Shown piece after piece: positions 35,664 through 63,285 of a stretch of 64,000 bases of DNA (the first letter of the stretch is position 1; every line of letters starts with the position of its first letter). This DNA is from Entrophospora sp. SA101 (Eukaryota > Glomeromycota > Glomeromycetes > Entrophosporales > Entrophosporaceae). The position numbers and the translations under genes are program-made. Under the pieces are notes generated by a model. That model was not told where the DNA came from, ran no database searches, and saw nothing but the letters and a program-made list of their open reading frames with translations. The stretch is from assembly GCA_958430865.1 (NCBI GenBank), contig CAUDNR010000868.1, positions 46,987-110,986 of the forward strand, given 5' to 3'.

Positions 35664-35835
35664 TTAATTCGAATTATTCGTTCTATTCGAATTATTCGTT
35701 CTATTCGAATTATTCGTTCTATTCGAATTATTTGTTCTATTCGTATTATTCTTTTTATTTGAATTATTCGTTTGATTTGAATTATTCGTTTTATTCGTTT
35801 ATTCGAATAAAACTTTTAATATAATTCGAATACTC
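35664..35835. repeat. Minisatellite of 18-bp ATTCGAATTATTCGTTCT units
   Basis: About six to eight units, the first ones nearly perfect and later ones diverged, contain the palindrome TTCGAA. Diverged relatives occur near 100-200 and 32500. Confidence 0.85.
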
Positions 35836-36322
35836 AAATTCATAATGAATAAAACAAATAATTTGAACCATTAAAGGCGAAATATTATAGTAAAAATAGT
35901 AAATAATCGTAATAATAATAACGATAGTAGTAGTAATAATAATACCGGAAAGCTTAGTATTAGTACCAGCGATTTATTTTGATCAAGCCATTTGCTAAGC
36001 GATCAAGTTATTTGCTAAGCGATCTATTTGATCAAGTCATTTCCTAAGCGATTTATTTGGCTAAGCCATTCATTGTTCGCATTACTACACTTAGTCACAC
36101 GGGGATGCGAAAGAAATGAAATAAGAAATATAATAAATAAATAAAGATATAAATAAAGTAAATAGAAATCAGCTTTAATCTTAATTCCAATAAATAACTG
36201 CATACAATTTGAAAAACAAAATTCGCTTTCATTTTTTTTATAAATACTCTTACAATAATCCCATACAATTTGAAAATCAAGAAAAAGTGAAAACTTGACA
36301 AAAATTATCTGAATAAATCAAA

Positions 36323-38080
36323 ATGAATTTCAATATTTCTCTTCTCTTTTTGATTATCTTTGCTGTTGTAGCTTTAGCAAGCCCAATTCATAACAATAAT
36401 TTGGTGAAGCGAGGTATTTCATTTATTATTATATTTACTATTACAATAATATATTGTTTTTGAAAAAATACTAACTGTTGGCTTTCATTTTATTTTAAAT
36501 AATAAATAGGCCCGTAAGTATTTTTGCACTATTATTACACTCAATATCATTGTTTTGAAAAAATATTAATTATTGGTTTTCATTTTATTCTAAATAATAA
36601 ATAGTGGTGTAAGTATTTTTGTACTATTATTACAGTCAATATCATTGTTTTTGAAAACATATTAACTGTTGGTTTTCATTTTATTTTTAAATAATAAATA
36701 GTGTGTGAGTGTTTTTATCATTTCATTATTAATATCATTGATTTTTTGAAAATATTAACTGTTGATTTTCATTTTATCTTAAATAATGAATAGAATGTGA
36801 GTATTCTCATCATTTCACTATTATTACAGTCAATAACATTGTTTTTGAAAAAATATTAACTGTTTGATTTTTGCTTTATCTTAAATAATAAATATAGGAA
36901 GTAAGTATTTCCATCATTTTACTATTATTACAATCAATATCATTGTTTTTGAAAAATATTAACTGTTAATTTTCATTTTATTTTAAATAATAAATAGCCC
37001 GTAAGTATTTTTATCATTTCACAGTCAATATCATTGTTTTTGAAAACATATTAACTGTTGATTTTCGTTTTATCTTAAATAATAATAAATAGAGTGTAAG
37101 TATTCTCATCATTTACTATTGTGACAGTCAATATCATTGTTTTTGAAAACATATTAACTGTTAATTTTTGTTTTATTTTAAATAATAAATAGTGTGTGGG
37201 TATTTTTATCATTTCATTATTATTACAGTCAATATCATTGTTTTTGAAAAAATACTAACTGTTGATTTTCATTTTATTTTAAATAATGGGTAGTGGGTAA
37301 GTATTTTCATCATTTCACTATTGTTACAGTCAATATCATTGTTTTTGAAAACATACTAACTGTTGATTTTCATTTTATTTTAAATAATAAATAGCAAGTA
37401 AGTATTCTCATCATTTTACTATTATTACACTCAATATCATTGTTTTTGAAAACATACTAACTGTTGATTTTTGTAAATAATGGGTAGCGGGTAAGTATTT
37501 TTATCATTTCATTATTATTACAGTCAATATCATTGTTTTTGAAAAAATACTAACTGTTGATTTTCATTGTATTTTAAATAATAAATAGCCTGTAAGTATT
37601 ATTATCATTTCACTATTGTTACAGTCAATATCATTGTTTTTGAAAACATATTAACTGTTGATTTTCATTTTATTTTAAATAATGGGTAGCCTGTAAGTAT
37701 TTTCATCATTTCACTATTGTTAAAGTCAATATCATTGTTTTGAAAAAATACTAACTGTTGATTTTCATTTTATTTTAAATAATGGGTAGCGGGTAAGTAT
37801 TCTCATCATTTCACTATTGTTACAGTCAATATCATTGTTTTTGAAAACATACTAACTGTTGATTTTGTTTTATCTTAAATAATGGGTAGTGGGTAAGTAT
37901 TTTTATTGTTTGCTATTATTACAGTTGAAAAATATTAACTGTTTGGTTTTCATTTTATTTTAAATAATGAATACAGGATGTAAGTATTCTCATCATTTCA
38001 CTATTGTTACCATTGTTTTTGTAAACATATTAACTGTTGGTTGATTTTCATTTTATTTTAAATAGAAATAGAGTAAATAA
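36323..38080 (+). CDS. Secreted peptide precursor built from tandem one-codon microexons
   Basis: Exon 1 (36323-36413) encodes 30 residues: a signal peptide (MNFNISLLFLIIFAVVALA) and a short pro-region ending in LVKR, a Kex2-type site. It stops one base into a codon at a GTATTT donor. Sixteen candidate microexons follow, each between a TAG/CAG acceptor and a GTAAGT/GTGAGT/GTGGGT donor: 36510-36513, 36605-36608 (4 nt each), then 3 nt at 36702, 36794, 36898, 36998, 37093, 37193, 37294, 37395, 37488, 37589, 37690, 37790, 37890 and 37977. The last exon is 38072-38080 (Ser-Lys-stop). Since 1+4+4=9, the frame resets and every later microexon is exactly one codon. The product is 49 aa and the peptide after KR is GPGCNEPSCWQRPPRWDSK. 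A CxxxxCW core, Trp residues and Kex2 release recall fungal alpha-type pheromones, but this is only an analogy. The splicing is inferred; the alternative is one 1.66-kb intron, giving KRE-stop. Confidence 0.7.
36414..38071 (+). repeat. Tandem array of 17 intron-like units
   Basis: Acceptor AGs end at 36509, 36604, 36701, 36793, 36897, 36997, 37092, 37192, 37293, 37394, 37487, 37588, 37689, 37789, 37889, 37976 and 38071, a period of 87-104 bp. The consensus has, in order, GTAAGTATTYTCATCATTTC, then ACTATTRTTACAGTCAATAT, CATTGTTTTTGAAAACATAC, a TACTAAC or ATTAAC branch-like site, GTTGATTTTCATTTTATTTT and AAATAATRRRTAG. The unit body is strongly conserved between copies, while the bases between each TAG and the next GT differ from copy to copy. 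Each unit is a complete spliceosomal intron by sequence signals. Confidence 0.92.
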
Positions 38081-38428
38081 AAGCTGTATTTGCTCTTTGG
38101 CTCTTTGATAACTTCATTTATCTCTTTAACTTTTTTTACTTTCATCTTATATTTATCTTTATTTTTTATTGTTGTTTATAATTTTTACGTTGCTTAAGAT
38201 TCATGCAAACTATAATGTTTATATTATAACATAGGAAGCGAGAATAAATATAAACAGTTCATACACAATAAGTGTTTATTATAATTTGAAAAGATTTATA
38301 TGTGTCAATTTAAATGGGAATGAAAATGAATAAAGTTACATCCAGTGTGCGGGCGCGCGTGTTACATTAAGGGTGGCCAATAATCTATTATGGTGCATGT
38401 CCATCTATAAATGTCAATAGTAATACAT
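38081..38428. other. Probable 3' UTR and flank of the microexon gene
   Basis: An AT-rich stretch follows the stop codon. A GC-rich patch, GTGTGCGGGCGCGCGTG, at about 38345 is out of keeping with the local composition. No gene is seen. Confidence 0.4.
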
Positions 38429-38514
38429 ATCTAAACTCGATAATTCGGACATTTATTCATATTATAAAGTACTTTAAATAATTGATTGCTGCATCCGACT
38501 TATCGAATTTAGAT
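38429..38514. mobile_element. Short element with ATCTAAACTCGATAATTCGG inverted ends
   Basis: ATCTAAACTCGATAATTCGG (left) is the imperfect inverse of CCGACTTATCGAATTTAGAT (right), 86 bp in all. Related half-sites lie at about 34808 and 34970. Confidence 0.65.
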
Positions 38515-38988
38515 GTAGATTTTTCCAATATTTTTTATATTATGCAAAGTGCAAAGAAAATTTTGTACATACAGTCAAAGCTCTCTATAACGAACCTCCA
38601 AAAACCCGAACTGCTCTCTATAATGAACTAAGGTGTTGGTCCCGATTTTTTGTTAATTAATTTTGCTCTGTATAACGAACTTTATAATTAAATTCTTTAT
38701 TCTGTATAATGAACTGCTTTTGAAAAATCATATGACAAATTTAAATATAAAATGGCGCTCTCTATACCGAACACAAAAATTGACATAAAAAAAAATTTAT
38801 TATTATTATTATTTGATACAAAGTATATTATACCGATTTCTTTCTTTAACTATAACGAAATACAAGCGATAAGAATACAATTGTTTATTAATTGATTGTT
38901 TACACACTACGTCTCTTTTGTTAAATCATTAATAAAAATAAAGAAAATAAATTAAAATACCAATTTTAGTTAAATATATAAAATATCC

Positions 38989-39201
38989 GTGTGCATTTTT
39001 TTTTTTAAAAAATATATTTTAAAATTCAATCAAATGTCAACTAAAAGAATAACTACTTTGACAGCTTTACAAAAGAAAGAAATATGTTTGTCGAAACAAA
39101 GGGATTCGAATATTTCTAACGTTGAACTTGCAGATATTTATAATGTTGGAAAATCTACAGTAACTGAGATTTTAAAAGAGGTTAATGTGCAATTTTCATA
39201 A
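38989..39201 (+). CDS. CENP-B N-terminal (psq) HTH fragment of a pogo-type transposase
   Basis: The 70-aa frame includes an in-frame internal Met that is the likely true start (MSTKRITTLTALQKKEICLS). The following helix-turn-helix NVELADIYNVGKSTVTEIL matches the DNA-binding head of Tigger/pogo transposases and CENP-B. It stops after the HTH, with no DDE catalytic domain, so it cannot transpose its own element. If expressed, it could act as a DNA-binding fragment. It lies inside the TIR-bounded element 38572-39522. Confidence 0.75.
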   Translation: MCIFFFKKYILKFNQMSTKRITTLTALQKKEICLSKQRDSNISNVELADIYNVGKSTVTEILKEVNVQFS

Positions 39202-39268
39202 TTATATTACGATCACATGACTATAAACGTGATGATTGATCGACACTTTCTTTATTATTATTATTATA

Positions 39269-39452
39269 CAGTGAACCCTTGTTTCAACGAGGTATAATTA
39301 AATTTTTGATACAACGAATTTTTTAAAAACGTTGTTACACATTATGAAAACATGTAAAATTCGTTGAAACGCGATTAGTAACCTTGTTTCAACGAATGTT
39401 GAATAAAATTTTCTTATATGTCCAGCAACTTCGTTGAAACAAGGGCAGACTG
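39269..39452. mobile_element. Nested pogo-like MITE with CAGTGAACCCTTGTTTCAACG ends
   Basis: CAGTGAACCCTTGTTTCAAC (left) faces the inverse of TTGAAACAAGGGCAGACTG (right), 184 bp, flanked by TA. Internal CGTTGAAAC words repeat. It is inserted inside the larger Tigger-like element and is therefore younger. Confidence 0.82.
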
Positions 39453-39961
39453 TATAGTGAACGCTCTCTACAACGAACCCCCTGTCCCGAGAATTTTTGT
39501 TCGTTATAGAGAGTTTTGACTGTATTCTAATTCAATTGAGGCCACATTTTTCACAACATAATAATAAAAAAGATCAACGATCGATTTTGTCACATGTGAT
39601 AAAACGAATGTCCACTATGCTCAAGTTCACATAGGCTTCATTTTCACGCACAACAGTTCTAAATAATTCAATTATGAAAAAGTAACCTGGTATGTGGCGT
39701 ATCACGAATAACTTTACAATGTTTGAATTTTCGCCATTTGCTCTAAATAAGTCGCCTTTATGATACTAATAAATCCGAGTATGAAACTTGTGCATATGAC
39801 ATTCAAAAAATAACATTGTTATGCCAAGATCTCATTGGATCTCAAAAAATGTGTTTATTATATATTATAATATTAATAAAAATGTTCAAATGAACATTAC
39901 ACACAATAGTAACAGGCTATTTATAGAGTGATATAAAAAAAAATATATTTATACAGTTTCT

Positions 39962-42268
39962 TTAAAGATTATCAGGACGAACCCATTCACTTTTAAGTCG
40001 TTCTCTCAAATCTTTTCTCAAAATTTTGCCGGAAGCGCTTTTAGGTATCTTATCAATAATGTAGACACCACCACGTAGTCGCATATGGTGAGCAACTTTT
40101 TCAGCCACGTAATCTTGAATGGATTTTTTAATTTGTTGGTGATCACTGGCGGCTGGATTTACTAGTTCGACATAAGCAACTGGTAATTCTGTAGCGTCTT
40201 GTTCTGAATATATGCCAACTACACCTGCATCGGAAATTATAGGGTTGGAAAGTAGAACTGATTCAAGTTCTGCAGGTGCAACTTGATGGCCCTAAAAAAA
40301 TTTGAGGTGATGATGAAAGGTGATGGTGATGAATAAGGGGATGAGGAATCAATTGATTAAAATTTATTTTAATTAACAAGTAAAAAAAAGAAAGATTGCA
40401 GACCTTATACTTGATAAGTTCTTTTACACGATCAACCAAGAAAACATTCCCTTTTTACAATAATAATAATAAACATGTCAATTAAAAATAAAAGAAAATA
40501 TTTTACATAACATTATATGATAAATAACAATTTACCATTTTCATCAATATAACCAAGATCTCCAGTATGAAAAAATCCATCTTTATCCATACATTCTTTA
40601 GTGGCTTTTTCATTATTAAGATAACCCTATTTTTTTGGAGGCTTTAGTCAAAGTAAATTAATTAACAATATTCATATATATATATATATGTATATGATTG
40701 GTACCTTCATGATGTTTGGACCACGAGCACATATTTCACCTTCTTCATTAACTCCAAGTTCTATCAAAAAAATTAATTATTTAGTTTTGAAGAATTAAAT
40801 TAAATTATTGTTATTACTTCTTATTACCTTTTCCATTTTCATCAATAAATTTTATCTCAACATTTGCTATAATAATTCCAGATGACCCTAAAAAAGAAAA
40901 TATTATTATTTATTTCTTTTTTTCTGATGAAATAATTCAAAACATAATTTTTTATATTACCAATTACAACATCATCAGTTTTACCCAATGTAAGCACTGG
41001 TGTAGTTTCAGTAAGTCCATAACCTTGCTTAAGAGGTATTTTCTTGAATTTGTCGTTGAACATCTTACTCAACTCTTTGCTCAATGGAGCAGCACCGCTT
41101 ACAATAAATTTTAAACTTGATAAATCATATTTGTCAACAACTGGGTTTTTAACCAGTTGAAGCAAAATCGGCGGAACTATATATCCAAGATTTATTTTAT
41201 AATCTTGTATTGTTTGACAAAATGAATTTATATCAAATTTTGATAAAAGTATTGCTGACGCTCCCTATTATTTATAATAAAAAAGTTTCATGAGAAGGAA
41301 GTTTTTTTAAAGAAACAAAATATTTTATTGAAAACTTACACTATAAGCTACTTGATGCAGAGTAATGTTCAATGCATATATATGAAAAAGTGGCTGTAAT
41401 GAAATAAGATAAAATATCATCATCAAACTCATAATCACGATTATGATAAATCATGAATCACAATCATCGTAATTATTATTATCCAATCTCACCAATATTC
41501 CCAAGAAGACAAGATCAGGAGTGAATTTCTCGAAATGATATACTTGTTCAAGATTAGCAATCATATTATAATGTGTGGTCTCAACACCTTTTTGTCTGCC
41601 AGTTGTACCAGAACTATAACACAAATAGGCAGTAGTTGATTTGACTTTTTCTTCGGTTGTATAATGAATAATTGCTGAATCATCATCATCCTTGTATAGA
41701 CTGGTGAATGGTTTAATGCCATTTTCAAGGTCTTCCTTTTCATCAAATACAAAGATCCTGGAAGTTGGTATTTTTACATTTTTTGCAGCTTCCAATACAG
41801 TAGGTAATAGTAATGGATGTGCAATGATGACTGATGCTCTGGAGTCGGATAGTTGATGTGTTAATTCATGAGCTTTATAACCAGAATTAGCTAATGTAAC
41901 AATTCCACCTGAAAAAAAAAAATTTTGCAAAAAATTGAAAATTTTTTTGTGGACAATAAATAAACTAGTTATTGATTAATTAATTAAATACCAGATGCAA
42001 TGACTCCAAATAACGCAATAGGATAATGGATGTGATTCAGGGAAACAATTGCCAAAACTTCTCCAGGTTTAAATCCAATTGATTTTAATCCACTGGCAAC
42101 CTTTCGAGTATAACTTTTAAATTCACCAAAAGTGATTTTTTCGTTAGTCAACCCATCAATGAAAATTGGTTTAGTATCAGGAATGGAATTAGGATTACTG
42201 GTCACATGATGATAAACATCAACATATGGGATTTTTAGATCAGGGAGTTTAGATTTAAATATAACCAT
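39962..42268 (-). CDS. 4-coumarate:CoA ligase-like acyl/aryl-CoA synthetase (paralogue 2, left-arm copy)
   Basis: Nine exons mirror the right-arm copy at 60540-62846 and encode 544 aa. All ANL motifs are present: [18 protein letters not shown] (about residues 190-207), [60 protein letters not shown] and [16 protein letters not shown] with the catalytic Lys. The C-terminus is RPDNL, so no PTS1. It is a paralogue of the 22968-25179 gene, with the same intron positions and a shared 3' flank of about 280 bp, but a different 5' flank. It is convergent with nothing; the start codon faces the GPCR's 3' end about 360 bp away. All exons are intact. Confidence 0.92.
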
Positions 42269-42630
42269 ATTTTTGTTGTTGGTTTAGATTTGTTAAATTT
42301 TGTATATATTTATTTTTTAAAAAAAAAAAAAAAAAAAAATGATAATATTGACATTATATATATATATTAAATTTTCCTAGAATCTAGAATATAAGCGGAG
42401 AAAAAAACCGGTTTTTCCATAAAAAGGATGACAATAACGGATCTCGCTTTAAAATTTACAGTGTTTATTATTATTAAGTTATTATATATATGTGTGTGTG
42501 TGTACACACATGTATATATATATCTATTAATACTACTATATAATAATATACAAAAAAAAAAAAAGAATATTCTATTTATAATATTAATTAATTACAATGA
42601 TAATTATAATATGATAACAATAATATTATA
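42269..42630. other. Intergenic spacer with homopolymer and TG/CA repeats
   Basis: It contains an A-run of more than 20 bases at about 42320, TA repeats and a GTGTGTGTGTACACACATGT stretch. There is no gene. The same tract lengths occur in the right arm (60178-60539). Confidence 0.6.
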
Positions 42631-44534
42631 TTAATACGCAGACGTCTCATTAACGGAATCTAAAGATTCAATTGAAGAAGATGAAAGAGTTCTTTGGTGA
42701 TGTCGATTATGTTGATGTAGATGAATATTGATTGTATTTTGTGATAAAGATGATGATGTTGTTGTTGGAGCATGTAATAAATCATTACCATAGCTATTTT
42801 TGTAACTATTATTAATTTTGTTAATGTCAACATTATTATTATTGTTATTAATGTTATAATTGATCAGTGTAGTTGAACTAGATCTATTATGAGATGATTT
42901 ATTGATTATTGGAGGATGTAATATGGTAATCATTGAAGGCGATGAAGAAGAAGAATAGTGGTGTTGTTGTTGTTGTGATTGTTGTGATTTAATTGATTCT
43001 TTTAGTTGACTTTTTCGTAGTTTTTGTTGTTTTAATCGAGATTTTTGTTGTTTGTCAAGTAGGAAACTACGTACAAACCATTTCATAAATTTACTCTTAC
43101 TTAGGATTGGTGATGATGATTTTTGTAGTGGTGTTATTGGGGGTAATGTTAATGATGAATTTCTAAAAGTTCTATTAAGGTTGGTGTTAGGTGGTGCAAT
43201 TGAAATTTCAGTTAATATTGGTGATGATTGGGGTTGAATTTTATTATTATTAAAATTATTATTAATGTTGTTGTTAATGTTGTCATTATTATTAGTGATA
43301 TTACCAATACTATTAAAAGATGCAGCTGTCGTTGCAGTTGCTGGTGTATTTGACGGAAACCTAAATTCTGATGGTGACAATGGTGGACTATTTAAAGAGA
43401 CAGTTGCTTTGCTATTATCGTCGTCGAACGGCTTCACAAAGCCATAACTATCCACCAAAACTCTTTTATACCTTCTAAAACCATTATGTAAAGCTGGATC
43501 GAATACGAATGCAAAAAAATTAAAAATTCCAGGAGAACATGTTCCAATAATTGACCAAAAAATTATAGCCTGAGGCTCGGTTCGATTTTTTTTGTGCACT
43601 GAAGTATAAATAAGTTCCACCAAGATACCGCTTACATTGAGCAAAGGTATTAACGCATAAAGAGAAATACGACTAACCAATTTTAACAATAATAATTTTT
43701 TGTGTCTGGCTTTTACTGATAAGGTTTTATTGCTTTTTGAAGATTGTATGACTTCTGCCAATTGACGATGTTCAAAGATCAATTTACACACCACAATCAT
43801 CAAAACCGTTGTACAATAAATCATTGATATTGTTATTGGAATGAAAAATGTTAAAATTGACCACCATCTTGTTGCCTCGGAATAACCTTCTCTGTATAAA
43901 CAATCAATGACATCAATGTCAAAGCCAAATCTATTATAGACTAGCGGTGGTATGTTTATAATTAATGCTGTTAGAAACGCTACCGGAACATACCATCTAT
44001 CTGAAAATCTTGAAACTTTTCTTCTGTGAAGAAAAACAACCTGCAATCACCAAGAAAATAAATTTTTTTGCTATTAATAATTTGTAATAATACTAAAAAA
44101 TCAATATTTACGCTAACAATAATTCTAATTACCTGTAGATTGAATGCAATCATAACAGTTAGAAATAAATATAACTGAGGGAAAAAACTCATTCCAAATC
44201 CAATAGCAGTGCATAATGTACCATCTACAGGAATCCATAGCGTGTACGCCAACACAGTTCCACCATTTAACATATCCACAAAGGAAATCATTGCAGTCAA
44301 CCTCAATGATACACGATCGACCAACTTTCTATCATAAAGCCACATAATGGTCATGATAAATAATACCAAGAAACCACATGAAATACTTATAATGCTTAGA
44401 TAAAAATTTAATTTGTCGTAAGTTGCTTCTAATCGAAAATGTTCAATGTCCTGTGTAAACTCTGGATTCACACCGTAATCTACGTAAGGGGCATTTGGAT
44501 CAGTGTTTGGGTCATAACTAGTATCATTACTCAT
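42631..44534 (-). CDS. Seven-TM receptor, cAMP-receptor/Git3-like (left-arm copy)
   Basis: Two exons (44534-44133 and 44040-42631) encode 603 aa, the same as the right-arm copy. An extracellular N-terminus with an NDT sequon precedes seven hydrophobic helices at about residues 43-66, 76-100, 108-132, 148-168, 194-220, 252-276 and 290-314. Cys108 at the top of TM3 and Cys181 in extracellular loop 2 can form the conserved disulfide. The long cytosolic tail (about 290 aa) is Asn/Gln/Ser-rich with basic patches, a likely phosphorylation and arrestin-type region. The overall pattern (YDRKLVDRVSLRLTAMISFV after TM1) fits fungal cAMP-receptor-like or glucose-sensing GPCRs, not the Ste2 or Ste3 pheromone receptors. 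The ligand is unknown. Confidence 0.87.
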
Positions 44535-47500
44535 TATGAATAATAAATATGAGTAACTAAATTATTTCTTCTTTTTCTTCTTTTCATAAACAAAAAAAAT
44601 AAATATAATTGATATTATTTTACGATTATATTTATATGATGACAAAATAATGATTATGGTAATAAAAATTTAAAGTAGAATTGAAGTGATTTGACCTGCA
44701 ATAAGGTGAAGAAAGAAGAAAGGGGAATCGGTGGGAAAAAAAGAATGTGTTGTATTTATAGTAAAATTTTTTTTGCAATTACTTTTTCTTTTTAATTTTA
44801 TTAAAGCTTGTTTACTAAAAAAGAAAAAAGAAAAAGGTTGCGAAAAAAAAAACAAAAAACCAAAAAATAAAAAAAAAATTTTGATGCGGTTTTTTTTCAT
44901 ATTATAATGGTTTTTATTTATACATCTTGTTATATTATTCTAGTTCACACATTGTTGATTTATACAAATAACAATTGAAAAATAATATTAATATATTTAT
45001 TTAAATTGACCTAAATAATCGACATTTATGTATTATATTAAATCTATCAAACTTTTTTGGCAAACAATGAGGGTTCTTTCTTTTACCGATTTGGAATCCA
45101 CAGTTAGAAGTTACACAAACTTAAAAAAACCTCATTTTTTGGTGACATTGTTTGGATCAATATTACAATATATATTGTATGCGGTTTAAAAATATAATAT
45201 GTTCTCATACAAATGAGTTTTTTTTATCGACAACAGCAAAACTAAAAAAATAGACACACATTCAAAATTAAATGCATAAAATAATCATTTGTCCTAATTT
45301 ATTAATTAGCCGATAATGCGCAAATTGTTATTTTATTTATTTAAAACTATTACTTTATTTGGGAATCGTTAGTTCAATGGTGCATTGATATGATAAAAAA
45401 GAGAGATATAATGAAAAAATTCTATCCTACCAATCAAGTTGTACTGTAACCAGCAACAACACAACAGATGCTACAGATAGGTAGAATGAAAAAGTAAAAT
45501 AAGGCAATTAGAATGAAGTAAAAGTCGTGTTGTCATTTAGATGAGATAATGCAAATCATAATGTTATTACCCGGGTGTTTAAGAAATTAATCAAAATTCC
45601 CTGTTATAAGGTGTGAAATGATCGTAATAGTGATTGGTTTACGGGATATGATCGGTTTACGAATGTTTCAATATTATCCGGTTATAACATTTACAATATG
45701 CAATTTTTCGTAAAACAATGTTAATATTTGTGATATCTTATTAAAAAAACCTTGGCATTCACAGTATCAATTATGCTATTCATAGTTAGTCTTTTTTTAT
45801 CATTTAATTTTAAATTAATATTACAAAAATCGTCAACCTTATCAGATAAATCGAACCGCCCAATTAAGTTTATAATGATGTGAAACTTTAACAAAGAAAA
45901 TTCGTTTGCCTATGTTCAATGAACAATAGCAATATTAAGTGTTAACACAACAATGATACGAACAAAAAACGGTTATTTATATCATTATTCTTCATTTTAC
46001 TCATCAAAAAATAAATAAATAAATAATTTATAGAGTGGTTTCTATTATTTTCCTAGAAAAGAACTTAGAAAGTCAAAACTAGGTATCAATTGGTGGAAAA
46101 TTAATTAGTTTAAATAAGAATCAAAAAGAAAAATATTTCGTGGAAAGACTTTTTGGTTAATTACTGCGGGCTAATATACGTGTGTATCACGAAATCCTAT
46201 CTATGGCGTTGAGGATTATGTGTGTATATATATATATATAAGGACATGGATTTGATGTATAAAACAATAAATTTTAATATATATCATCGCATATTGATTT
46301 GAACCATTTTTCTTAGGTTAATCCAAAATGGTGGATAGTTGCAATTCGTATGGTGTATAGTGTTATTAGATTAGAAATCCAATTGCATCGAGAAAGGGAA
46401 GTGGGAATTTAATATAGGCATTGTAAATGAATCATCTAATGAATGTACCTGAAAACAACATTCATATTAATATAGAGAATACAGATATTGAAAATGATTT
46501 AATTTATACTGGAAACAATGATGCCTTAAATAAAGTAAAATATAGGCATCAATGTAATCCATTATGACTTGTCAATTTAAAAGAACAAAAAAGACCAATC
46601 ACAAATCACATATTTGTATAAAATAAAGAAAATAATAAAAAAATACTTCTGCCGAATCTTATTTGCCTAGAAAAGTTAGAGCTAACCAACTATATGATCA
46701 ATCTGTTTTTTATTATATGTATTTATGTTTTGTTAAAAAAAAAAATCCGTATATTTGTCATCGGAATTTCCAGTACTAGTACTAATCGTTAAAATGTTGA
46801 CTAAAGGTAGTTTTTTACCAAGGGTTATTTTGATGATTTAGTCAAAGTATAAATCCTAGACGGAAGTAAAATCTTATTTTTTTTCCTTTATCTAATCTAA
46901 TATTTAATTTGACCTAGATTGCTTTACATCCCATCAATTCTAGATAAAAAGGTAATTGCCATTGTAATTAGAGTGTGTATAGCATATGAACTATATCTGA
47001 ATACATCATATGACCATCCCTATCGATGAAAGCATATTGAGCATACTTAGAATTAAGCAGAGCAAGTTCTTTAAAAAATGTTTTGTTTGAATATGAGAGA
47101 TCGGAGAAAGTTAGTTAATCATGATGGATTGGAAATTTAATGTAAAATGTACTTTTTAATTAAAAAAAAAAACATACTAGACGAAATAAAATGAAGAATC
47201 TTTATATATTTATTTCAACCAATTTGTTGACTTCATTGTTCAAAATATGCTTTTGAGCGTCAAATTTATTTGTTCAATATTTCGTTGTTCATTCATACAT
47301 ACTAGATCCTGTTTTTTGTTACGATTGGTTTATTTTGATTCAAAATTAAGTAAAACAACAACATCATCCTGATAAATGGCATTATTAATAAATGGCCATT
47401 GCATTATATCACTCAAGTCTCGAGGGTCACATACACCTTAGCCTTTTTCTTGCGAAATTGATGGCTAGAATAAAGTATTTATAAAATATTTGTCAAATAA

Positions 47501-48875
47501 TTAATAATTATAATATTATTAACAAATTATTGCATCGCTTACTGTTCCTGATTATATATTAACAATCATAAATTCAAACTATTTGTATCCGCTTCCTTGA
47601 TAAAATAAATTGAGAGAGATCATTTGTAATAATCATTATCATTGTAGAATCGTTCTTGAACAATTAACTAACAATTGAAACCATTTTGTGGTAATCTGGT
47701 CAATCAAAATTCTTTTCGATGCCATCCATAATTTGTTGACCGTTGTTGGTTTAACTGTTGCTTTAGTTGCTCCCAGTATAACTTGAGCAATTGTGCTATA
47801 ATCGAGGCAGTGTTAAAATTCTATTCATAAATACTTGTCTCTCAGCATATAAATTCAAACATGCTGCCTTCATGCCTTATTTTTGTAAATATTCATCTTG
47901 CAACTCCCTATATACTGTCAATGAACCGCAGAGTGAGGTCTGATTACAAATTGCGATCCATATTCGTATAGTTGTTTTTTTTCTTTTCTCGTTAAATCAG
48001 GAGAATATATTACCATTTAAAAAAATTGAAGCTTTGTTGATAATTAATTATATAGAAACGAAGTTGTTTCAGATATGAATAACTTAAAGAGACAATGTGA
48101 ACTTTAAATATTCATCATGACATGATAATTGCGAAAACATGAATTCATCTTCAATTGGTAAGACCTGGTGTAAACAGTTCTAGTAGCTTTAGAAAATTTT
48201 ACATAAATAAATTTTCAGCTGCGAATAAAAGGTAGAGGTGTTTTTATTTTTAGTATATACATTCTTTAAAAAGACAGTTCTTTAAAAAATAGATATTTGG
48301 GGAGCGATAAGCGAAAATACAGGAGACGAGGTTCTTGACAATGAACAACGATTGAAAAGAATCAGGAGTTCAATAAAATTGAGGTAAGCCTATCTATTTA
48401 GAACTTCGAATCAGTTATAATAAATTTGTTATCGTTATTTTTTTAAATAATTTAATAAATTCTTCTTGAAGTTGATTGTATTGTTATGTCCAAAATCAAG
48501 GGATCTGAAAATAATGAGGATGATGAAAATGGATGGTATTTATAAAGTTTTAACTGAATTCAATCCGAAAGATGTGATTTTCGGTTTAGTTTCGATTTTT
48601 CAAGAGCACTAGAAAAGATGAAAGAAATTGCGCCAAAATTGAGTTACAAGTTGTTTTCATTCCAGCCTAGCGCACTCATTCATACTATATTCAAATATTG
48701 TAGGAGAAATTAGATAATAAATTATATTTGCAAAAAAAAACCACAAAAAGGAATGTTGTCATAAAAAATTAATTTTTTTTAAAATAAATATTAAAAAGTT
48801 AAAACGTCCTTTAATAATTTATATAAGTTATTAGCATCAGACAGAAAAGAATTAGCAATTAAAATTTATAATGAA
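44535..48875. other. Long intergenic region of the left arm
   Basis: About 4.3 kb without a confident gene. The frame 44670-44900 (-) is a homopolymer-rich artefact of the receptor's upstream region. At about 46795-46880 lies a relative of the 19534-19660 repeat. On the minus strand about 47660-47820 an open stretch reads DYSTIAQVILGATKATVKPT, then TVNKLWMASKRILIDQ, perhaps a transposase relic. On the plus strand 48290-48387 is an exon-like stretch (see separate entry). Confidence 0.45.
48290..48387 (+). other. Candidate upstream exon, function unknown
   Basis: The stretch reads WGAISENTGDEVLDNEQRLK, then RIRSSIKLR, and ends at a GTAAGC donor. A following open stretch after an AAG acceptor at about 48471 continues to about 48610. 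It could be a 5' exon of the kinase at 48876 or a small separate gene. The mirror copy is at 54421-54518 (-). Confidence 0.35.
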
Positions 48876-49459
48876 ATGCATAGTATTGCTTATTCTGCTT
48901 TTCCGGTTGTTGCTGACAATGAAAATTATAAAAGTTATTTTTTACAATTAGTCAAAGAAAACAAAGAACTATTAGAAAATGAAAAGGAATATTGTAGCAA
49001 AAGGTTTGTTTATAATTTCGAATTAAACAATGCAATTCATAAACTTGGTAAACCAAGAGAATGCAATAATTGTAAAGCAGAAAGATACTCTGATAAATAT
49101 TGTGAAAAGTGTGTTAGTCTACACTTACAGAGCCTTTTTAGTACTTGGACATCTGGAAATGAGATAATTGATAGTTTTATTCAAGAATGTCAACAGCTTT
49201 CATCTCTTCCGCAGCATATTATAGAATGGATACCTTATGAGCAATTTTATGATATAAAAAAGTTAACAGAGGGTGGATTCAGTTCTATTTATACTGCTAC
49301 ATGGACAAGAGGATCTATTGATGATTATGGTGAAAATAAAAAGGAGTTTAATTATTTTGGAGTTGAGCAAGTAGTATTAAAATCATTAAATAATTCAAGT
49401 AATCCAGGAAAACCTTTTTTTGATGAGGTAATTGTTCTTATTTAAAATAAACTAAATTA
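48876..49459 (+). pseudogene. Truncated kinase gene: first exon only (left-arm copy)
   Basis: Exon 1 (48876-49427) is identical to that of the 53932-52543 gene. It has the Cys-rich CNNCKAERYSDKYCEKC motif, EWIPYEQFYDIKKLTEGGFS Gly loop region and VVLKSL lysine, then the GTAATT donor. The arm ends 32 nt into the intron, so no catalytic loop, DFG or C-lobe follows. The downstream sequence (49460 onward) is unrelated. The copy can at most express a 189-aa N-lobe fragment. Coding character extends upstream of the ATG without a stop for about 60 nt, so the true start may be in an earlier exon. Confidence 0.9.
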
Positions 49460-51360: not shown

Positions 51361-51456
51361 AAAGCTCCTCACGAGCTGGCTTGCGAGCCAAAAAACTTAT
51401 TCAGCTTGTGAGGCTACTAAGTTATTTGGCTTGCGAGCTGGCTCATGCGGAGCCTT
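51361..51456. mobile_element. Hairpin MITE with 9-bp target duplication at the palindrome centre
   Basis: AAAGCTCCTCACGAGC (left) is the imperfect inverse of GGCTCATGCGGAGCCTT (right), with further pairing of GCTTGCGAGC words, 96 bp. The direct repeat AATACCAAT flanks it (51351-51359 and 51457-51465). A 9-bp duplication fits Mutator-like transposition. It is distinctly GC-richer than its surroundings. Its centre (about 51408) is within 5 bp of the inverted-repeat axis (51404). Confidence 0.78.
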
Positions 51457-52542: not shown

Positions 52543-53932
52543 TTATATTTCATAATTTAATAAGCTATCATTACTTAAATTCAATTTAGCAATTTCATCA
52601 TTTAAATTTAATATTCTACTTGAATGATATGCTAATGGATGTGATTTGTGAACACTTTGTGAATTACTAATACTACTATTATTATCACTATTATTGTTGA
52701 TAATTTCTTGTAGTTGACTATTAGCAAAGTCACAAAGCTCTCTAATAGTTGGTCTTTTAGATGGATCCCCATCCCAACACTTCTGCATCATTTGTACACA
52801 ATCATCAGGCATTCCTGGTAATATTGGTGGACGTAAACCTTCACATATTTTTAATTGCAAACAAAAATCATGTGCTGTATCATCAAATGGTGGATGACCT
52901 GCAAATATTTCCCACATTAACATCCCAACACTATAAACATCTGTTTCTTTTGTGTATTTTTTTCCTCTAAGTAGCTCAGGTGCAATATAAGATATAATTC
53001 CATAAATTTTATTTGTTAATTTTTCATCAACTGGTCCACATAACCCAAAATCTGTGATAAAACAACTACCTCCTTGTAATCACAATGAATTAAATCTTTT
53101 TCATGTATAAAATATAATGATTCACATAAAAATGTAGAAATATTGATTCTATCTTTTAATGTTAAATTATAATGATTTTTTTGTATATAATCTCTTAAAT
53201 TTCCCTCTGAATGATAATTAAGAACTATTGCATAATTTCCATTTTCTGGAAATTCAGTTATACCATAACAAGAAACAATTAAATTTGATTTAATTTTACA
53301 GTAATTCAATGCCTGAAATTAATAATTAATTATATAAATAAAGTGATTTAATTTAGTTTATTTTAAATAAGAACAATTACCTCATCAAAAAAAGGTTTTC
53401 CTGGATTACTTGAATTATTTAATGATTTTAATACTACTTGCTCAACTCCAAAATAATTAAACTCCTTTTTATTTTCACCATAATCATCAATAGATCCTCT
53501 TGTCCATGTAGCAGTATAAATAGAACTGAATCCACCCTCTGTTAACTTTTTTATATCATAAAATTGCTCATAAGGTATCCATTCTATAATATGCTGCGGA
53601 AGAGATGAAAGCTGTTGACATTCTTGAATAAAACTATCAATTATCTCATTTCCAGATGTCCAAGTACTAAAAAGGCTCTGTAAGTGTAGACTAACACACT
53701 TTTCACAATATTTATCAGAGTATCTTTCTGCTTTACAATTATTGCATTCTCTTGGTTTACCAAGTTTATGAATTGCATTGTTTAATTCGAAATTATAAAC
53801 AAACCTTTTGCTACAATATTCCTTTTCATTTTCTAATAGTTCTTTGTTTTCTTTGACTAATTGTAAAAAATAACTTTTATAATTTTCATTGTCAGCAACA
53901 ACCGGAAAAGCAGAATAAGCAATACTATGCAT
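52543..53932 (-). pseudogene. TKL-type kinase with 1-nt frameshift in the catalytic loop (right-arm copy)
   Basis: Exon 1 (53932-53381, 184 codons) lies in the right arm, and exon 2 (53312-52543) starts just inside the spacer. The N-terminus has a CNNCKAE...YCEKC Cys motif and LTEGGFSSIYTATW Gly loop, with Lys in VVLKSL. Exon 2 runs through YGITEFPENGNYAIVLNYHS to LIHCD, then loses frame at about 53078-53082 (one T too few). The other frame then gives GGSCFITDFGLCGPVDEKLT, YIAPELLRGKKYTKETDVYS and the C-lobe DGDPSKRPT, ending NDSLLNYEI. The exons total 1,322 nt, one short of a multiple of three. Beyond the lesion all motifs are intact, so it is a very recent break or a consensus error. The catalytic loop has HCD and lacks the usual HSGN. 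Confidence 0.75.
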
Positions 53933-56900
53933 TTCATTATAAATTTTAATTGCTAATTCTTTTCTGTCTGATGCTAATAACTTATATAAATTATTAAAGG
54001 ACGTTTTAACTTTTTAATATTTATTTTAAAAAAAATTAATTTTTTATGACAACATTCCTTTTTGTGGTTTTTTTTTGCAAATATAATTTATTATCTAATT
54101 TCTCCTACAATATTTGAATATAGTATGAATGAGTGCGCTAGGCTGGAATGAAAACAACTTGTAACTCAATTTTGGCGCAATTTCTTTCATCTTTTCTAGT
54201 GCTCTTGAAAAATCGAAACTAAACCGAAAATCACATCTTTCGGATTGAATTCAGTTAAAACTTTATAAATACCATCCATTTTCATCATCCTCATTATTTT
54301 CAGATCCCTTGATTTTGGACATAACAATACAATCAACTTCAAGAAGAATTTATTAAATTATTTAAAAAAATAACGATAACAAATTTATTATAACTGATTC
54401 GAAGTTCTAAATAGATAGGCTTACCTCAATTTTATTGAACTCCTGATTCTTTTCAATCGTTGTTCATTGTCAAGAACCTCGTCTCCTGTATTTTCGCTTA
54501 TCGCTCCCCAAATATCTATTTTTTAAAGAACTGTCTTTTTAAAGAATGTATATACTAAAAATAAAAACACCTCTACCTTTTATTCGCAGCTGAAAATTTA
54601 TTTATGTAAAATTTTCTAAAGCTACTAGAACTGTTTACACCAGGTCTTACCAATTGAAGATGAATTCATGTTTTCGCAATTATCATGTCATGATGAATAT
54701 TTAAAGTTCACATTGTCTCTTTAAGTTATTCATATCTGAAACAACTTCGTTTCTATATAATTAATTATCAACAAAGCTTCAATTTTTTTAAATGGTAATA
54801 TATTCTCCTGATTTAACGAGAAAAGAAAAAAAACAACTATACGAATATGGATCGCAATTTGTAATCAGACCTCACTCTGCGGTTCATTGACAGTATATAG
54901 GGAGTTGCAAGATGAATATTTACAAAAATAAGGCATGAAGGCAGCATGTTTGAATTTATATGCTGAGAGACAAGTATTTATGAATAGAATTTTAACACTG
55001 CCTCGATTATAGCACAATTGCTCAAGTTATACTGGGAGCAACTAAAGCAACAGTTAAACCAACAACGGTCAACAAATTATGGATGGCATCGAAAAGAATT
55101 TTGATTGACCAGATTACCACAAAATGGTTTCAATTGTTAGTTAATTGTTCAAGAACGATTCTACAATGATAATGATTATTACAAATGATCTCTCTCAATT
55201 TATTTTATCAAGGAAGCGGATACAAATAGTTTGAATTTATGATTGTTAATATATAATCAGGAACAGTAAGCGATGCAATAATTTGTTAATAATATTATAA
55301 TTATTAATTATTTGACAAATATTTTATAAATACTTTATTCTAGCCATCAATTTCGCAAGAAAAAGGCTAAGGTGTATGTGACCCTCGAGACTTGAGTGAT
55401 ATAATGCAATGGCCATTTATTAATAATGCCATTTATCAGGATGATGTTGTTGTTTTACTTAATTTTGAATCAAAATAAACCAATCGTAACAAAAAACAGG
55501 ATCTAGTATGTATGAATGAACAACGAAATATTGAACAAATAAATTTGACGCTCAAAAGCATATTTTGAACAATGAAGTCAACAAATTGGTTGAAATAAAT
55601 ATATAAAGATTCTTCATTTTATTTCGTCTAGTATGTTTTTTTTTTTAATTAAAAAGTACATTTTACATTAAATTTCCAATCCATCATGATTAACTAACTT
55701 TCTCCGATCTCTCATATTCAAACAAAACATTTTTTAAAGAACTTGCTCTGCTTAATTCTAAGTATGCTCAATATGCTTTCATCGATAGGGATGGTCATAT
55801 GATGTATTCAGATATAGTTCATATGCTATACACACTCTAATTACAATGGCAATTACCTTTTTATCTAGAATTGATGGGATGTAAAGCAATCTAGGTCAAA
55901 TTAAATATTAGATTAGATAAAGGAAAAAAAATAAGATTTTACTTCCGTCTAGGATTTATACTTTGACTAAATCATCAAAATAACCCTTGGTAAAAAACTA
56001 CCTTTAGTCAACATTTTAACGATTAGTACTAGTACTGGAAATTCCGATGACAAATATACGGATTTTTTTTTTTAACAAAACATAAATACATATAATAAAA
56101 AACAGATTGATCATATAGTTGGTTAGCTCTAACTTTTCTAGGCAAATAAGATTCGGCAGAAGTATTTTTTTATTATTTTCTTTATTTTATACAAATATGT
56201 GATTTGTGATTGGTCTTTTTTGTTCTTTTAAATTGACAAGTCATAATGGATTACATTGATGCCTATATTTTACTTTATTTAAGGCATCATTGTTTCCAGT
56301 ATAAATTAAATCATTTTCAATATCTGTATTCTCTATATTAATATGAATGTTGTTTTCAGGTACATTCATTAGATGATTCATTTACAATGCCTATATTAAA
56401 TTCCCACTTCCCTTTCTCGATGCAATTGGATTTCTAATCTAATAACACTATACACCATACGAATTGCAACTATCCACCATTTTGGATTAACCTAAGAAAA
56501 ATGGTTCAAATCAATATGCGATGATATATATTAAAATTTATTGTTTTATACATCAAATCCATGTCCTTATATATATATATATACACACATAATCCTCAAC
56601 GCCATAGATAGGATTTCGTGATACACACGTATATTAGCCCGCAGTAATTAACCAAAAAGTCTTTCCACGAAATATTTTTCTTTTTGATTCTTATTTAAAC
56701 TAATTAATTTTCCACCAATTGATACCTAGTTTTGACTTTCTAAGTTCTTTTCTAGGAAAATAATAGAAACCACTCTATAAATTATTTATTTATTTATTTT
56801 TTGATGAGTAAAATGAAGAATAATGATATAAATAACCGTTTTTTGTTCGTATCATTGTTGTGTTAACACTTAATATTGCTATTGTTCATTGAACATAGGC

Positions 56901-58273
56901 AAACGAATTTTCTTTGTTAAAGTTTCACATCATTATAAACTTAATTGGGCGGTTCGATTTATCTGATAAGGTTGACGATTTTTGTAATATTAATTTAAAA
57001 TTAAATGATAAAAAAAGACTAACTATGAATAGCATAATTGATACTGTGAATGCCAAGGTTTTTTTAATAAGATATCACAAATATTAACATTGTTTTACGA
57101 AAAATTGCATATTGTAAATGTTATAACCGGATAATATTGAAACATTCGTAAACCGATCATATCCCGTAAACCAATCACTATTACGATCATTTCACACCTT
57201 ATAACAGGGAATTTTGATTAATTTCTTAAACACCCGGGTAATAACATTATGATTTGCATTATCTCATCTAAATGACAACACGACTTTTACTTCATTCTAA
57301 TTGCCTTATTTTACTTTTTCATTCTACCTATCTGTAGCATCTGTTGTGTTGTTGCTGGTTACAGTACAACTTGATTGGTAGGATAGAATTTTTTCATTAT
57401 ATCTCTCTTTTTTATCATATCAATGCACCATTGAACTAACGATTCCCAAATAAAGTAATAGTTTTAAATAAATAAAATAACAATTTGCGCATTATCGGCT
57501 AATTAATAAATTAGGACAAATGATTATTTTATGCATTTAATTTTGAATGTGTGTCTATTTTTTTAGTTTTGCTGTTGTCGATAAAAAAAACTCATTTGTA
57601 TGAGAACATATTATATTTTTAAACCGCATACAATATATATTGTAATATTGATCCAAACAATGTCACCAAAAAATGAGGTTTTTTTAAGTTTGTGTAACTT
57701 CTAACTGTGGATTCCAAATCGGTAAAAGAAAGAACCCTCATTGTTTGCCAAAAAAGTTTGATAGATTTAATATAATACATAAATGTCGATTATTTAGGTC
57801 AATTTAAATAAATATATTAATATTATTTTTCAATTGTTATTTGTATAAATCAACAATGTGTGAACTAGAATAATATAACAAGATGTATAAATAAAAACCA
57901 TTATAATATGAAAAAAAACCGCATCAAAATTTTTTTTTTATTTTTTGGTTTTTTGTTTTTTTTTTCGCAACCTTTTTCTTTTTTCTTTTTTAGTAAACAA
58001 GCTTTAATAAAATTAAAAAGAAAAAGTAATTGCAAAAAAAATTTTACTATAAATACAACACATTCTTTTTTTCCCACCGATTCCCCTTTCTTCTTTCTTC
58101 ACCTTATTGCAGGTCAAATCACTTCAATTCTACTTTAAATTTTTATTACCATAATCATTATTTTGTCATCATATAAATATAATCGTAAAATAATATCAAT
58201 TATATTTATTTTTTTTGTTTATGAAAAGAAGAAAAAGAAGAAATAATTTAGTTACTCATATTTATTATTCATA
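53933..58273. other. Long intergenic region of the right arm
   Basis: This is the mirror of 44535-48875, with the same repeat relative (about 55928-56013), the same exon-like stretch (54421-54518, -) and the same coding relic (about 54988-55148, +). No confident gene is seen. Confidence 0.45.
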
Positions 58274-60177
58274 ATGAGTAATGATACTAGTTATGACCCA
58301 AACACTGATCCAAATGCCCCTTACGTAGATTACGGTGTGAATCCAGAGTTTACACAGGACATTGAACATTTTCGATTAGAAGCAACTTACGACAAATTAA
58401 ATTTTTATCTAAGCATTATAAGTATTTCATGTGGTTTCTTGGTATTATTTATCATGACCATTATGTGGCTTTATGATAGAAAGTTGGTCGATCGTGTATC
58501 ATTGAGGTTGACTGCAATGATTTCCTTTGTGGATATGTTAAATGGTGGAACTGTGTTGGCGTACACGCTATGGATTCCTGTAGATGGTACATTATGCACT
58601 GCTATTGGATTTGGAATGAGTTTTTTCCCTCAGTTATATTTATTTCTAACTGTTATGATTGCATTCAATCTACAGGTAATTAGAATTATTGTTAGCGTAA
58701 ATATTGATTTTTTAGTATTATTACAAATTATTAATAGCAAAAAAATTTATTTTCTTGGTGATTGCAGGTTGTTTTTCTTCACAGAAGAAAAGTTTCAAGA
58801 TTTTCAGATAGATGGTATGTTCCGGTAGCGTTTCTAACAGCATTAATTATAAACATACCACCGCTAGTCTATAATAGATTTGGCTTTGACATTGATGTCA
58901 TTGATTGTTTATACAGAGAAGGTTATTCCGAGGCAACAAGATGGTGGTCAATTTTAACATTTTTCATTCCAATAACAATATCAATGATTTATTGTACAAC
59001 GGTTTTGATGATTGTGGTGTGTAAATTGATCTTTGAACATCGTCAATTGGCAGAAGTCATACAATCTTCAAAAAGCAATAAAACCTTATCAGTAAAAGCC
59101 AGACACAAAAAATTATTATTGTTAAAATTGGTTAGTCGTATTTCTCTTTATGCGTTAATACCTTTGCTCAATGTAAGCGGTATCTTGGTGGAACTTATTT
59201 ATACTTCAGTGCACAAAAAAAATCGAACCGAGCCTCAGGCTATAATTTTTTGGTCAATTATTGGAACATGTTCTCCTGGAATTTTTAATTTTTTTGCATT
59301 CGTATTCGATCCAGCTTTACATAATGGTTTTAGAAGGTATAAAAGAGTTTTGGTGGATAGTTATGGCTTTGTGAAGCCGTTCGACGACGATAATAGCAAA
59401 GCAACTGTCTCTTTAAATAGTCCACCATTGTCACCATCAGAATTTAGGTTTCCGTCAAATACACCAGCAACTGCAACGACAGCTGCATCTTTTAATAGTA
59501 TTGGTAATATCACTAATAATAATGACAACATTAACAACAACATTAATAATAATTTTAATAATAATAAAATTCAACCCCAATCATCACCAATATTAACTGA
59601 AATTTCAATTGCACCACCTAACACCAACCTTAATAGAACTTTTAGAAATTCATCATTAACATTACCCCCAATAACACCACTACAAAAATCATCATCACCA
59701 ATCCTAAGTAAGAGTAAATTTATGAAATGGTTTGTACGTAGTTTCCTACTTGACAAACAACAAAAATCTCGATTAAAACAACAAAAACTACGAAAAAGTC
59801 AACTAAAAGAATCAATTAAATCACAACAATCACAACAACAACAACACCACTATTCTTCTTCTTCATCGCCTTCAATGATTACCATATTACATCCTCCAAT
59901 AATCAATAAATCATCTCATAATAGATCTAGTTCAACTACACTGATCAATTATAACATTAATAACAATAATAATAATGTTGACATTAACAAAATTAATAAT
60001 AGTTACAAAAATAGCTATGGTAATGATTTATTACATGCTCCAACAACAACATCATCATCTTTATCACAAAATACAATCAATATTCATCTACATCAACATA
60101 ATCGACATCACCAAAGAACTCTTTCATCTTCTTCAATTGAATCTTTAGATTCCGTTAATGAGACGTCTGCGTATTAA
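58274..60177 (+). CDS. Seven-TM receptor, cAMP-receptor/Git3-like (right-arm copy)
   Basis: Exons 58274-58675 and 58768-60177 encode 603 aa, identical to the left-arm copy. The single intron falls after residue 134, at the end of TM3 (FNLQ|VVFLHRRK). TM5 begins at the RWWSILTFFIPI segment and TM7 at the IIFWSIIGTCSPGIF segment. The tail includes Asn runs encoded by pure AAT/AAC tracts. Identical dose in both arms would double the gene if the palindrome is real. The promoter side faces the long 4.3-kb intergenic region. Confidence 0.88.
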
Positions 60178-60539
60178 TATAATATTATTGTTATCATATT
60201 ATAATTATCATTGTAATTAATTAATATTATAAATAGAATATTCTTTTTTTTTTTTTGTATATTATTATATAGTAGTATTAATAGATATATATATACATGT
60301 GTGTACACACACACACATATATATAATAACTTAATAATAATAAACACTGTAAATTTTAAAGCGAGATCCGTTATTGTCATCCTTTTTATGGAAAAACCGG
60401 TTTTTTTCTCCGCTTATATTCTAGATTCTAGGAAAATTTAATATATATATATAATGTCAATATTATCATTTTTTTTTTTTTTTTTTTTTAAAAAATAAAT
60501 ATATACAAAATTTAACAAATCTAAACCAACAACAAAAAT
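60178..60539. other. Intergenic spacer with homopolymer and TG/CA repeats (mirror)
   Basis: This is the mirror of 42269-42630, between the receptor stop codon and the ligase start. It must contain the ligase promoter. A T-run of more than 20 bases sits about 55 bp upstream of the ligase ATG. Confidence 0.55.
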
Positions 60540-62846: not shown

Positions 62847-63285
62847 AGAAACTGTATAAATATATTTTTTTTTATATCACTCTATAAATAGCCTGTTACT
62901 ATTGTGTGTAATGTTCATTTGAACATTTTTATTAATATTATAATATATAATAAACACATTTTTTGAGATCCAATGAGATCTTGGCATAACAATGTTATTT
63001 TTTGAATGTCATATGCACAAGTTTCATACTCGGATTTATTAGTATCATAAAGGCGACTTATTTAGAGCAAATGGCGAAAATTCAAACATTGTAAAGTTAT
63101 TCGTGATACGCCACATACCAGGTTACTTTTTCATAATTGAATTATTTAGAACTGTTGTGCGTGAAAATGAAGCCTATGTGAACTTGAGCATAGTGGACAT
63201 TCGTTTTATCACATGTGACAAAATCGATCGTTGATCTTTTTTATTATTATGTTGTGAAAAATGTGGCCTCAATTGAATTAGAATA

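Follow-up and report, generated by a model that had tools for sequence, protein, structure and literature searches.

The spliceosome can reportedly handle exons of a single nucleotide: APC11 of Arabidopsis is said to contain a spliced 1-nt exon, proof that spliceosomes can do so, and this is one isolated tiny exon, unlike the arrays described below. Runs of very short exons have been described in the micro-exon genes (MEGs) of Schistosoma, where the excerpted source gives exons of 6-81 bp in its body text (3-81 bp in its abstract), mostly of 15 bp, with 10-20 exons per gene and introns of 0.1-5 kb (PMC10526429). In aphids, the portion of the report drawn on here gives ~17 exons on average for bicycle genes and more than 100 microexons for megacycle genes (PMC9168663). 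Closer to the organism of this study, excerpts of three papers on secreted proteins of Rhizophagus describe a conserved intron before the first repeat in SP7-like genes, and one or two introns in AGL genes, one of them adjoining the signal peptide, with introns more conserved than the mature coding sequence; these excerpts on SP7-like, AGL and Kex2-repeat proteins make no mention of microexon arrays (PMC11333574, PMC8786786, PMC6339444). Arrays of one-codon exons, or micro-exon genes of arbuscular mycorrhizal (AM) fungi, were likewise absent among the matches listed in open-access titles and abstracts, a body of text to which subscription papers and bioRxiv mostly do not belong.

We analysed a 64,000-nt stretch of the genome of Entrophospora sp. 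SA101 (hereafter the window), in which a gene at 36323-38080 is split by 17 introns into a 91-nt signal-peptide exon, 16 microexons and a terminal exon (Table 1). A sequence-only reading had proposed a signal exon ending in LVKR and followed by 17 intron-like units, separated by microexons of 4, 4 and then fourteen times 3 nt, with the phase reset by 1 + 4 + 4 = 9. Scanning window positions 35800-38700 for an acceptor AG and a donor GT within a few bases recovered this layout in full, lengths and phase arithmetic included. The predicted joined product is MNFNISLLFLIIFAVVALASPIHNNNLVKR-GPGCNEPSCWQRPPRWDSK-stop, and the donor of exon 1 is GTATTT. The last acceptor is ambiguous, as an AG six bases 5' of it (38064-38065), picked in some versions of the parser described below, would give ...WDK-stop. 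Tandem Repeats Finder reports the array as a tandem repeat with a period of ~100 nt; its units are therefore not independent of one another, and genome-wide spacer length is the better test against chance. The further proposal of one codon per exon gains its support more from the gene family, through frame tests, spacers and a database protein consistent with such splicing, than from the single locus.

Table 1 Exons and introns of the microexon gene in the window. Positions are those of the window; exon boundaries and encoded residues are predicted from splice-site motifs.
Feature	Position	Strand	Basis
Exon 1 (MNFNISLLFLIIFAVVALASPIHNNNLVKR and one further base, G): putative signal peptide, then a short pro-region with LVKR at its end	36323..36413	+	sequence; 63 genome matches
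Microexon 1, GCCC, 4 nt, frame-setting	36510..36513	+	AG/GT scan; 45 four-nt spacers genome-wide
Microexon 2, TGGT, 4 nt, frame-setting	36605..36608	+	AG/GT scan
Microexon 3, TGT (C)	36702..36704	+	AG/GT scan
Microexon 4, AAT (N)	36794..36796	+	AG/GT scan
Microexon 5, GAA (E)	36898..36900	+	AG/GT scan
Microexon 6, CCC (P)	36998..37000	+	AG/GT scan
Microexon 7, AGT (S)	37093..37095	+	AG/GT scan
Microexon 8, TGT (C)	37193..37195	+	AG/GT scan
Microexon 9, TGG (W)	37294..37296	+	AG/GT scan
Microexon 10, CAA (Q)	37395..37397	+	AG/GT scan
Microexon 11, CGG (R)	37488..37490	+	AG/GT scan
Microexon 12, CCT (P)	37589..37591	+	AG/GT scan
Microexon 13, CCT (P)	37690..37692	+	AG/GT scan
Microexon 14, CGG (R)	37790..37792	+	AG/GT scan
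Microexon 15, TGG (W)	37890..37892	+	AG/GT scan
Microexon 16, GAT (D)	37977..37979	+	AG/GT scan
Terminal exon AGTAAATAA, AGT AAA TAA = S K stop	38072..38080	+	sequence; similar AGTAAATAG ends in several paralogues
17 alike introns of ~100 nt each, with the microexons between them	36414..38071	+	donor mostly GTAAGT, branch-like TATTAAC/TACTAAC, acceptor AG

Another contig (G000:C1893:81310-83067) carries the gene once more, with 100% identity across 1,758 nt; the flanking kilobases there do not match those of the window letter for letter. About eight copies of an 18-bp repeat (ATTCGAATTATTCGTTCT) occupy window positions 35667-35805, ~0.5 kb upstream of the gene.

The locus belongs to a family. 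In the genome searched (101.3 Mb, 2,123 contigs), at least 85 stretches match it as DNA, a lower bound composed of overlapping pieces, and a search with the signal exon at E ≤ 10 returned 63 matches; the weakest has an E-value of 0.02, and 42 lie below 1e-5. Arrays were delimited by a parser that links donors to acceptors and takes no account of the reading frame. Units with 3- or 4-nt gaps served to train its site tables, and it was revised several times in the light of its output, so its length statistics are supporting rather than independent evidence. Of the 49 loci entered in the final parse, 39 gave one array each, of which 35 are distinct, and ten gave none (L017, L036, L042, L050, L059, L070 and L077-L080), L079 having a longer first exon that falls outside the donor range of the parser. 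Each parsed array contains from 2 to 45 exons of 3 nt, some arrays being cut by the end of the stretch taken, and near-identical copies of arrays are present in the genome.

The leader is a hydrophobic MKFNISLLFLIIFAVVALAS (judged by eye) that may act as a signal peptide, and most arrays have a putative Kex2-type dibasic site between leader and mature peptide. Exon 1 ends in KR in 24/35 arrays, in RR in 2/35 and in SR, ER or MR in 5/35; in the remaining arrays the site is either completed or lost across the exon that follows. The peptides encoded by the arrays are very different from each other. C, E, P, A, D, G and K abound in the predicted mature sequences. L019, with 45 one-codon exons, would encode a Cys-rich peptide, L009, with 36, would encode NPGVCWACGGCISCCCAECCTKEELAALRAALREKFLAEL, and other predicted peptides are IPVFRRPYDYDWDYDCEQCK (L013) and DCDPDPHSIDPCPVFTTP... 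(L029). Broken first exons mark some members of the family as dead: exon 1 contains stops in L038 and L039, the usual ATG is out of frame in the two L017 arrays, and it is lost in L077. One-codon-spaced arrays with no usual signal exon in view were also seen on G000:C167 and at L082 (G000:C139:43300-46600), where the triplets include ATT, GCT, GCA, GCG, AGT, CAC and TTG and the upstream sequence is N.

In its sequence, the family fits the architecture of micro-exon genes, with many consecutive, very short and mostly symmetric internal exons. It resembles the MEGs of Schistosoma, as far as the excerpted source describes them, in its secreted products (here predicted), in runs of very short exons that are mostly multiples of three, and in being hard for automatic annotation (PMC10526429). 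The likeness to schistosomes drawn by the sequence-only reading holds for architecture only. Unlike in MEGs, nearly all exons are 3 nt, with up to 45 per array, and the introns are tandem near-copies of ~98 nt; the mostly 15-bp exons and introns of up to 5 kb by which the MEG superfamily is defined were not found here, and homology with MEGs is not expected. To our knowledge, aphid bicycle and megacycle genes have no single-codon exons and no tandem intron copies. They do share with the family many small exons of one phase, rapid divergence and a putative role as host-interaction effectors, according to the part of the report drawn on (PMC9168663). The predicted products would also be secreted proteins of Glomeromycotina, like the SP7-like effectors, AGL proteins and Kex2-processed repeat proteins of Rhizophagus; unlike SP7-like effectors, the parsed arrays have 7 to 54 introns, and the mature peptides are mostly without long repeats, the exceptions being duplicated blocks in L019 and L030 (judged by eye, against the excerpts of PMC11333574). 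Since the excerpts and abstracts drawn on show no such architecture, the arrays are classed as an extreme form of micro-exon gene.

We counted acceptor-donor spacers across the genome independently of the parser, holding the flanking motifs fixed (AATAAATAG...GTAAGTAT) and allowing 0 to 6 nt between them. The counts, which include near-identical duplicate loci, were 0, 15, 0, 284, 45, 0 and 1, respectively. Spacers of 2 and 5 nt, either of which would break the frame anywhere, were thus absent between these motifs throughout the genome, and reversed-motif controls gave at most 3 matches per strand. The 35 distinct parsed arrays display the same preference: 535 of the 553 exons that follow the frame-setting ones are exactly 3 nt long, and the 616 introns have 46 different lengths that fall in all three length phases, with a mean of ~98 nt. 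Later exons whose length is not a multiple of 3 number 9/553, two of them in L019, which has a damaged donor, and seven near array ends. Exons of 4 nt occur at the first two places only, as do those of 1 nt, apart from two L019 units with the damaged donor and one unit near the end of L043.

These first exons set the frame. Together with the one leftover base they add up to a multiple of 3 in 28/35 arrays, as pairs of 4+4 (17 arrays), 4+1 (7), 4+7 (2) or 1+1 (2). The seven that do not compensate include L029, L031 and L035, in which an 85-nt first exon is combined with one frame-setting exon; L032 and L033, which have a frame-setting unit missed or damaged and are read out of frame; the pseudogene L038, with a shifted first donor; and L064, which has no frame-setting exon. 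A sub-family (L029, L030, L031, L034 and L035) is characterised by the 85-nt first exon and by 3-nt exons that are read as split between codons. TGA triplets occur in three arrays with this first exon (1/13, 1/11 and 2/21), all out of frame, and are harmless because of the split. The first microexon of L035 can be read as ATAGAAA or AAA, with the frame open either way, so that its phase is ambiguous and provides no proof of a split; L029 and L031 carry that point.

Read in the frame set by exon 1, 28/35 arrays contain no stop. In L018, L022 and L026 a stop falls in the last codon only and in L024 five codons before the end, whilst the arrays of L019, L038 and L039 are damaged, L039 also having a stop when exon 1 is counted. 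After exon 1, this frame holds stops at 11/660 codons, and the other two frames at 24/637 and 105/632. The 11 comprise the three last-codon stops, the one in L024, six in L019 after the damaged donor is read as a 1-nt exon, and one in L038. Among phase-0 triplets no stop was found (0/490, with 23.2 expected from base composition by position), nor was there one among non-redundant triplet contexts (0/289, with 14.8 expected; P = 2.5e-7). L032 and L033 lack stops even though they are read out of frame; an open frame on its own is therefore weak evidence in a short array.

Splice signals are strong and uniform across the units: the donor is GTAAGTAT in 449/535, the acceptor is TAG in 516/535, and a branch-like motif is present in 507/535, its branch A at a median of 37 nt from the exon. 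At all eight intronic positions the donor GTAAGTAT would presumably be complementary to the 5' end of U1. As donor, branch-like motif and acceptor all lie within the intron, the codon need not add to splice-site strength and would be free to vary. Abutting acceptor AGs and donors, equivalent to exons of zero length, occur in 18/35 arrays (for example L019, L009 and L010), with one to three in each. Altogether there are 41 such junctions, with GCAAGT next in 26 and GTAAGT in 15, and in form they resemble recursive splice sites. AATAAATAG joined directly to GTAAGTAT is found nowhere in the genome, and GTAAGT zero-length junctions follow AAAAG instead. RNA secondary structure that would bring the sites together was considered and rejected (z = 0.09 for the 778 nt that begin at the start codon).

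Taken together, this analysis makes it highly probable that these loci are micro-exon genes and form a large family, whose products are small secreted peptides with nearly all of the mature part encoded by one-codon exons. The conserved exon 1 would supply the signal peptide followed by a short pro-region with a terminal KR, a site suited to Kex2-type cleavage, and the mature peptide would be read from successive one-codon exons that are set between copies of one ~98-nt intron. With an acceptor and a donor only 3 nt apart, use of both at once is unlikely, and the introns are most likely removed singly by intron definition. Exon definition would be implausible over 3 nt, and we posit a sequential, intron-defined removal akin to recursive splicing.

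Comparison of related arrays revealed a roughly 7-13 times higher level of difference in codons than in the introns around them. In runs with less than 2% intron difference, aligned unit by unit, 23/531 exon sites differ as compared to 119/20,567 intron sites. Under a stricter filter, with flanking introns at least 97% alike, the values are 5/381 and 24/22,930. Within the latter set 3/127 codon pairs differ, all of them non-synonymously; the direction is clear but the events are few. In the wider comparison, more distant runs show a difference of ~52% in exons versus 5% in introns, values obtained by aligning on the intron alone, which leaves codon homology doubtful, and the pairs of runs, close or distant, overlap and are not independent. 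When each unit is matched to the one most similar in flanking sequence, among arrays that share no four-codon run, the two codons agree in 24% of cases, as compared to an average of 7.7% and a maximum of 11.7% in 1,000 within-array shuffles. Cassette and codon thus seem to travel together. The Cys codon TGT is accompanied by a GTGAGT or GTGGGT donor in 44/68 units, and nine other common codons nearly always by GTAAGT; this tie may reflect a founder effect or functional coupling.

These patterns are consistent with a repeat unit made of one codon and one intron, in which unequal recombination between alike introns would add, remove or swap whole codons. As such recombination would take place within introns, the frame would stay unbroken, and codons would diversify whilst introns stay alike. 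We consider it likely that codon and exon coincide here, that single-codon cassettes are shuffled by intron recombination, and that the spliceosome reads the array codon by codon, zero-length steps included. This would be exon shuffling at the smallest possible unit.

A spliced form of such a gene may be represented among database proteins. Searching 11 predicted precursors against 5.8 billion proteins gave two matches at E ≤ 1 (265 candidates), P0001 and P0002. P0001 (56 aa, from a 1,024-nt JGI contig) consists of MKFNISLLFLIIFAAVTALASPTHNNNLAKR, a putative signal peptide with AKR, directly joined to the 25-residue RLPTVWCWDEQWAQWYDCRDPYVSE. With introns of ~98 nt, 25 one-codon exons would need ~2.5 kb, more than the contig holds, which suggests that the contig is probably cDNA or an intronless gene copy. 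The mature part of P0001 was found in no parsed array or predicted peptide compared by eye; the protein may come from another species or from an intronless gene copy. P0002 (654-nt ENA contig) resembles exon 1 running on into intron 1, as unspliced DNA would. When used as a query, P0001 returned only itself and P0002.

None of the peptides of L019, L009, P0001 and the window gene has a Pfam match above cut-off, and none matches gamma-thionin (PF00304); P0001 has a sub-threshold match to Toddler (14 bits, cut-off 27). An intronless locus, L078 (G000:C106, from 23380), has the same type of leader and a KR site, is defensin-like and scores 25.9 bits for PF00304 (cut-off 25.1). It may be a relative whose signal exon has the same origin, and no homologues of its defensin were found at E ≤ 0.001. 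With this gamma-thionin match, antimicrobial, effector and signalling roles are all candidates for the family peptides, which might serve the symbiosis, defence or signalling. An amphipathic helix in KEELAALRAALREKFLAEL of L009 was dropped, its helical moment (0.119) being below that of shuffles (0.259).

We weighed these results against three other readings. The array could be a non-coding tandem repeat, a minisatellite or introner-like element, within one 1.66-kb intron, with KRE-stop as the product. Tandem Repeats Finder does see an ordinary ~100-nt repeat, and the exon-1 donor GTATTT is weak as compared to the GTAAGT donors of the array. A repeat of this kind, however, would not account for fixed-motif spacers restricted to 1, 3, 4 and 6 nt and never 2 or 5, for the stop-free in-phase triplets, for compensating frame-setting exons in 28 of the 35 arrays or for the joined signal and mature peptide of P0001, and its product would have nothing after the KR site; we regard it as very improbable. 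Slightly less so, and still unlikely, is a relic in which one or a few functional genes are accompanied by many dying copies, so that most of what is seen is decayed paralogy with no current function. The broken first exons of L038, L039, both L017 arrays and L077 fit such decay, and the near-identical copies suggest recent duplication. On the other hand, 28 of the 35 arrays are stop-free in the parsed frame and three more have a stop only in the last codon, two thirds of the signal-exon matches (42/63) lie below 1e-5, and codon differences exceed intron differences, unlike in neutral decay.

The remaining reading would add to the preferred one rather than exclude it: as skipping of exons would not lose the frame, each gene could yield a population of peptides. 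It draws on the 535/553 later exons that are symmetric single codons, on the damaged donor of L019 (present in two copies), which would be harmless if its unit were skipped, the frame then being open, and on schistosome micro-exon genes, which in the excerpted source vary mainly by splicing of their central exons (PMC10526429). The strong, uniform splice signals, with GTAAGTAT at most donors, favour constitutive inclusion instead, and such combinatorial output appears possible though doubtful.

If the arrays are spliced as predicted, with one codon per exon, up to 45 one-codon exons stand in series, more than 95% of the transcribed array is removed, and the known serial capacity of the spliceosome is stretched. 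Because the exon seems to be free of signals, the arrays would be well suited to testing intron definition and recursive splicing. They would also represent a route of peptide evolution in which single codons are moved between frame-safe blocks of intron homology. Such genes are likely to escape standard annotation and read mapping, and the genomes of AM fungi and other organisms may therefore hide a class of secreted peptides.

Elsewhere in the window, whose sequence is AT-rich, an inverted repeat with arms of ~10.6 kb (38821-49440 and 53368-63987) starts ~0.7 kb downstream of the array. The arms mirror each other about a single axis near 51404 at all 529 sampled 60-mers, and the repeat is either a genuine palindrome or an artefact of assembly. 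A kinase exon lies at 12568-13326 (Pkinase); together with the AT-rich sequence and the secreted-peptide content, it suggests a Glomeromycotina (Rhizophagus-like) genome. Two Glomeromycota rRNA primer sequences had no exact match in the genome, whose assembly may lack rDNA. The window also contains a 5S rRNA gene at 1155-1273 (Rfam RF00001, 101.8 bits).
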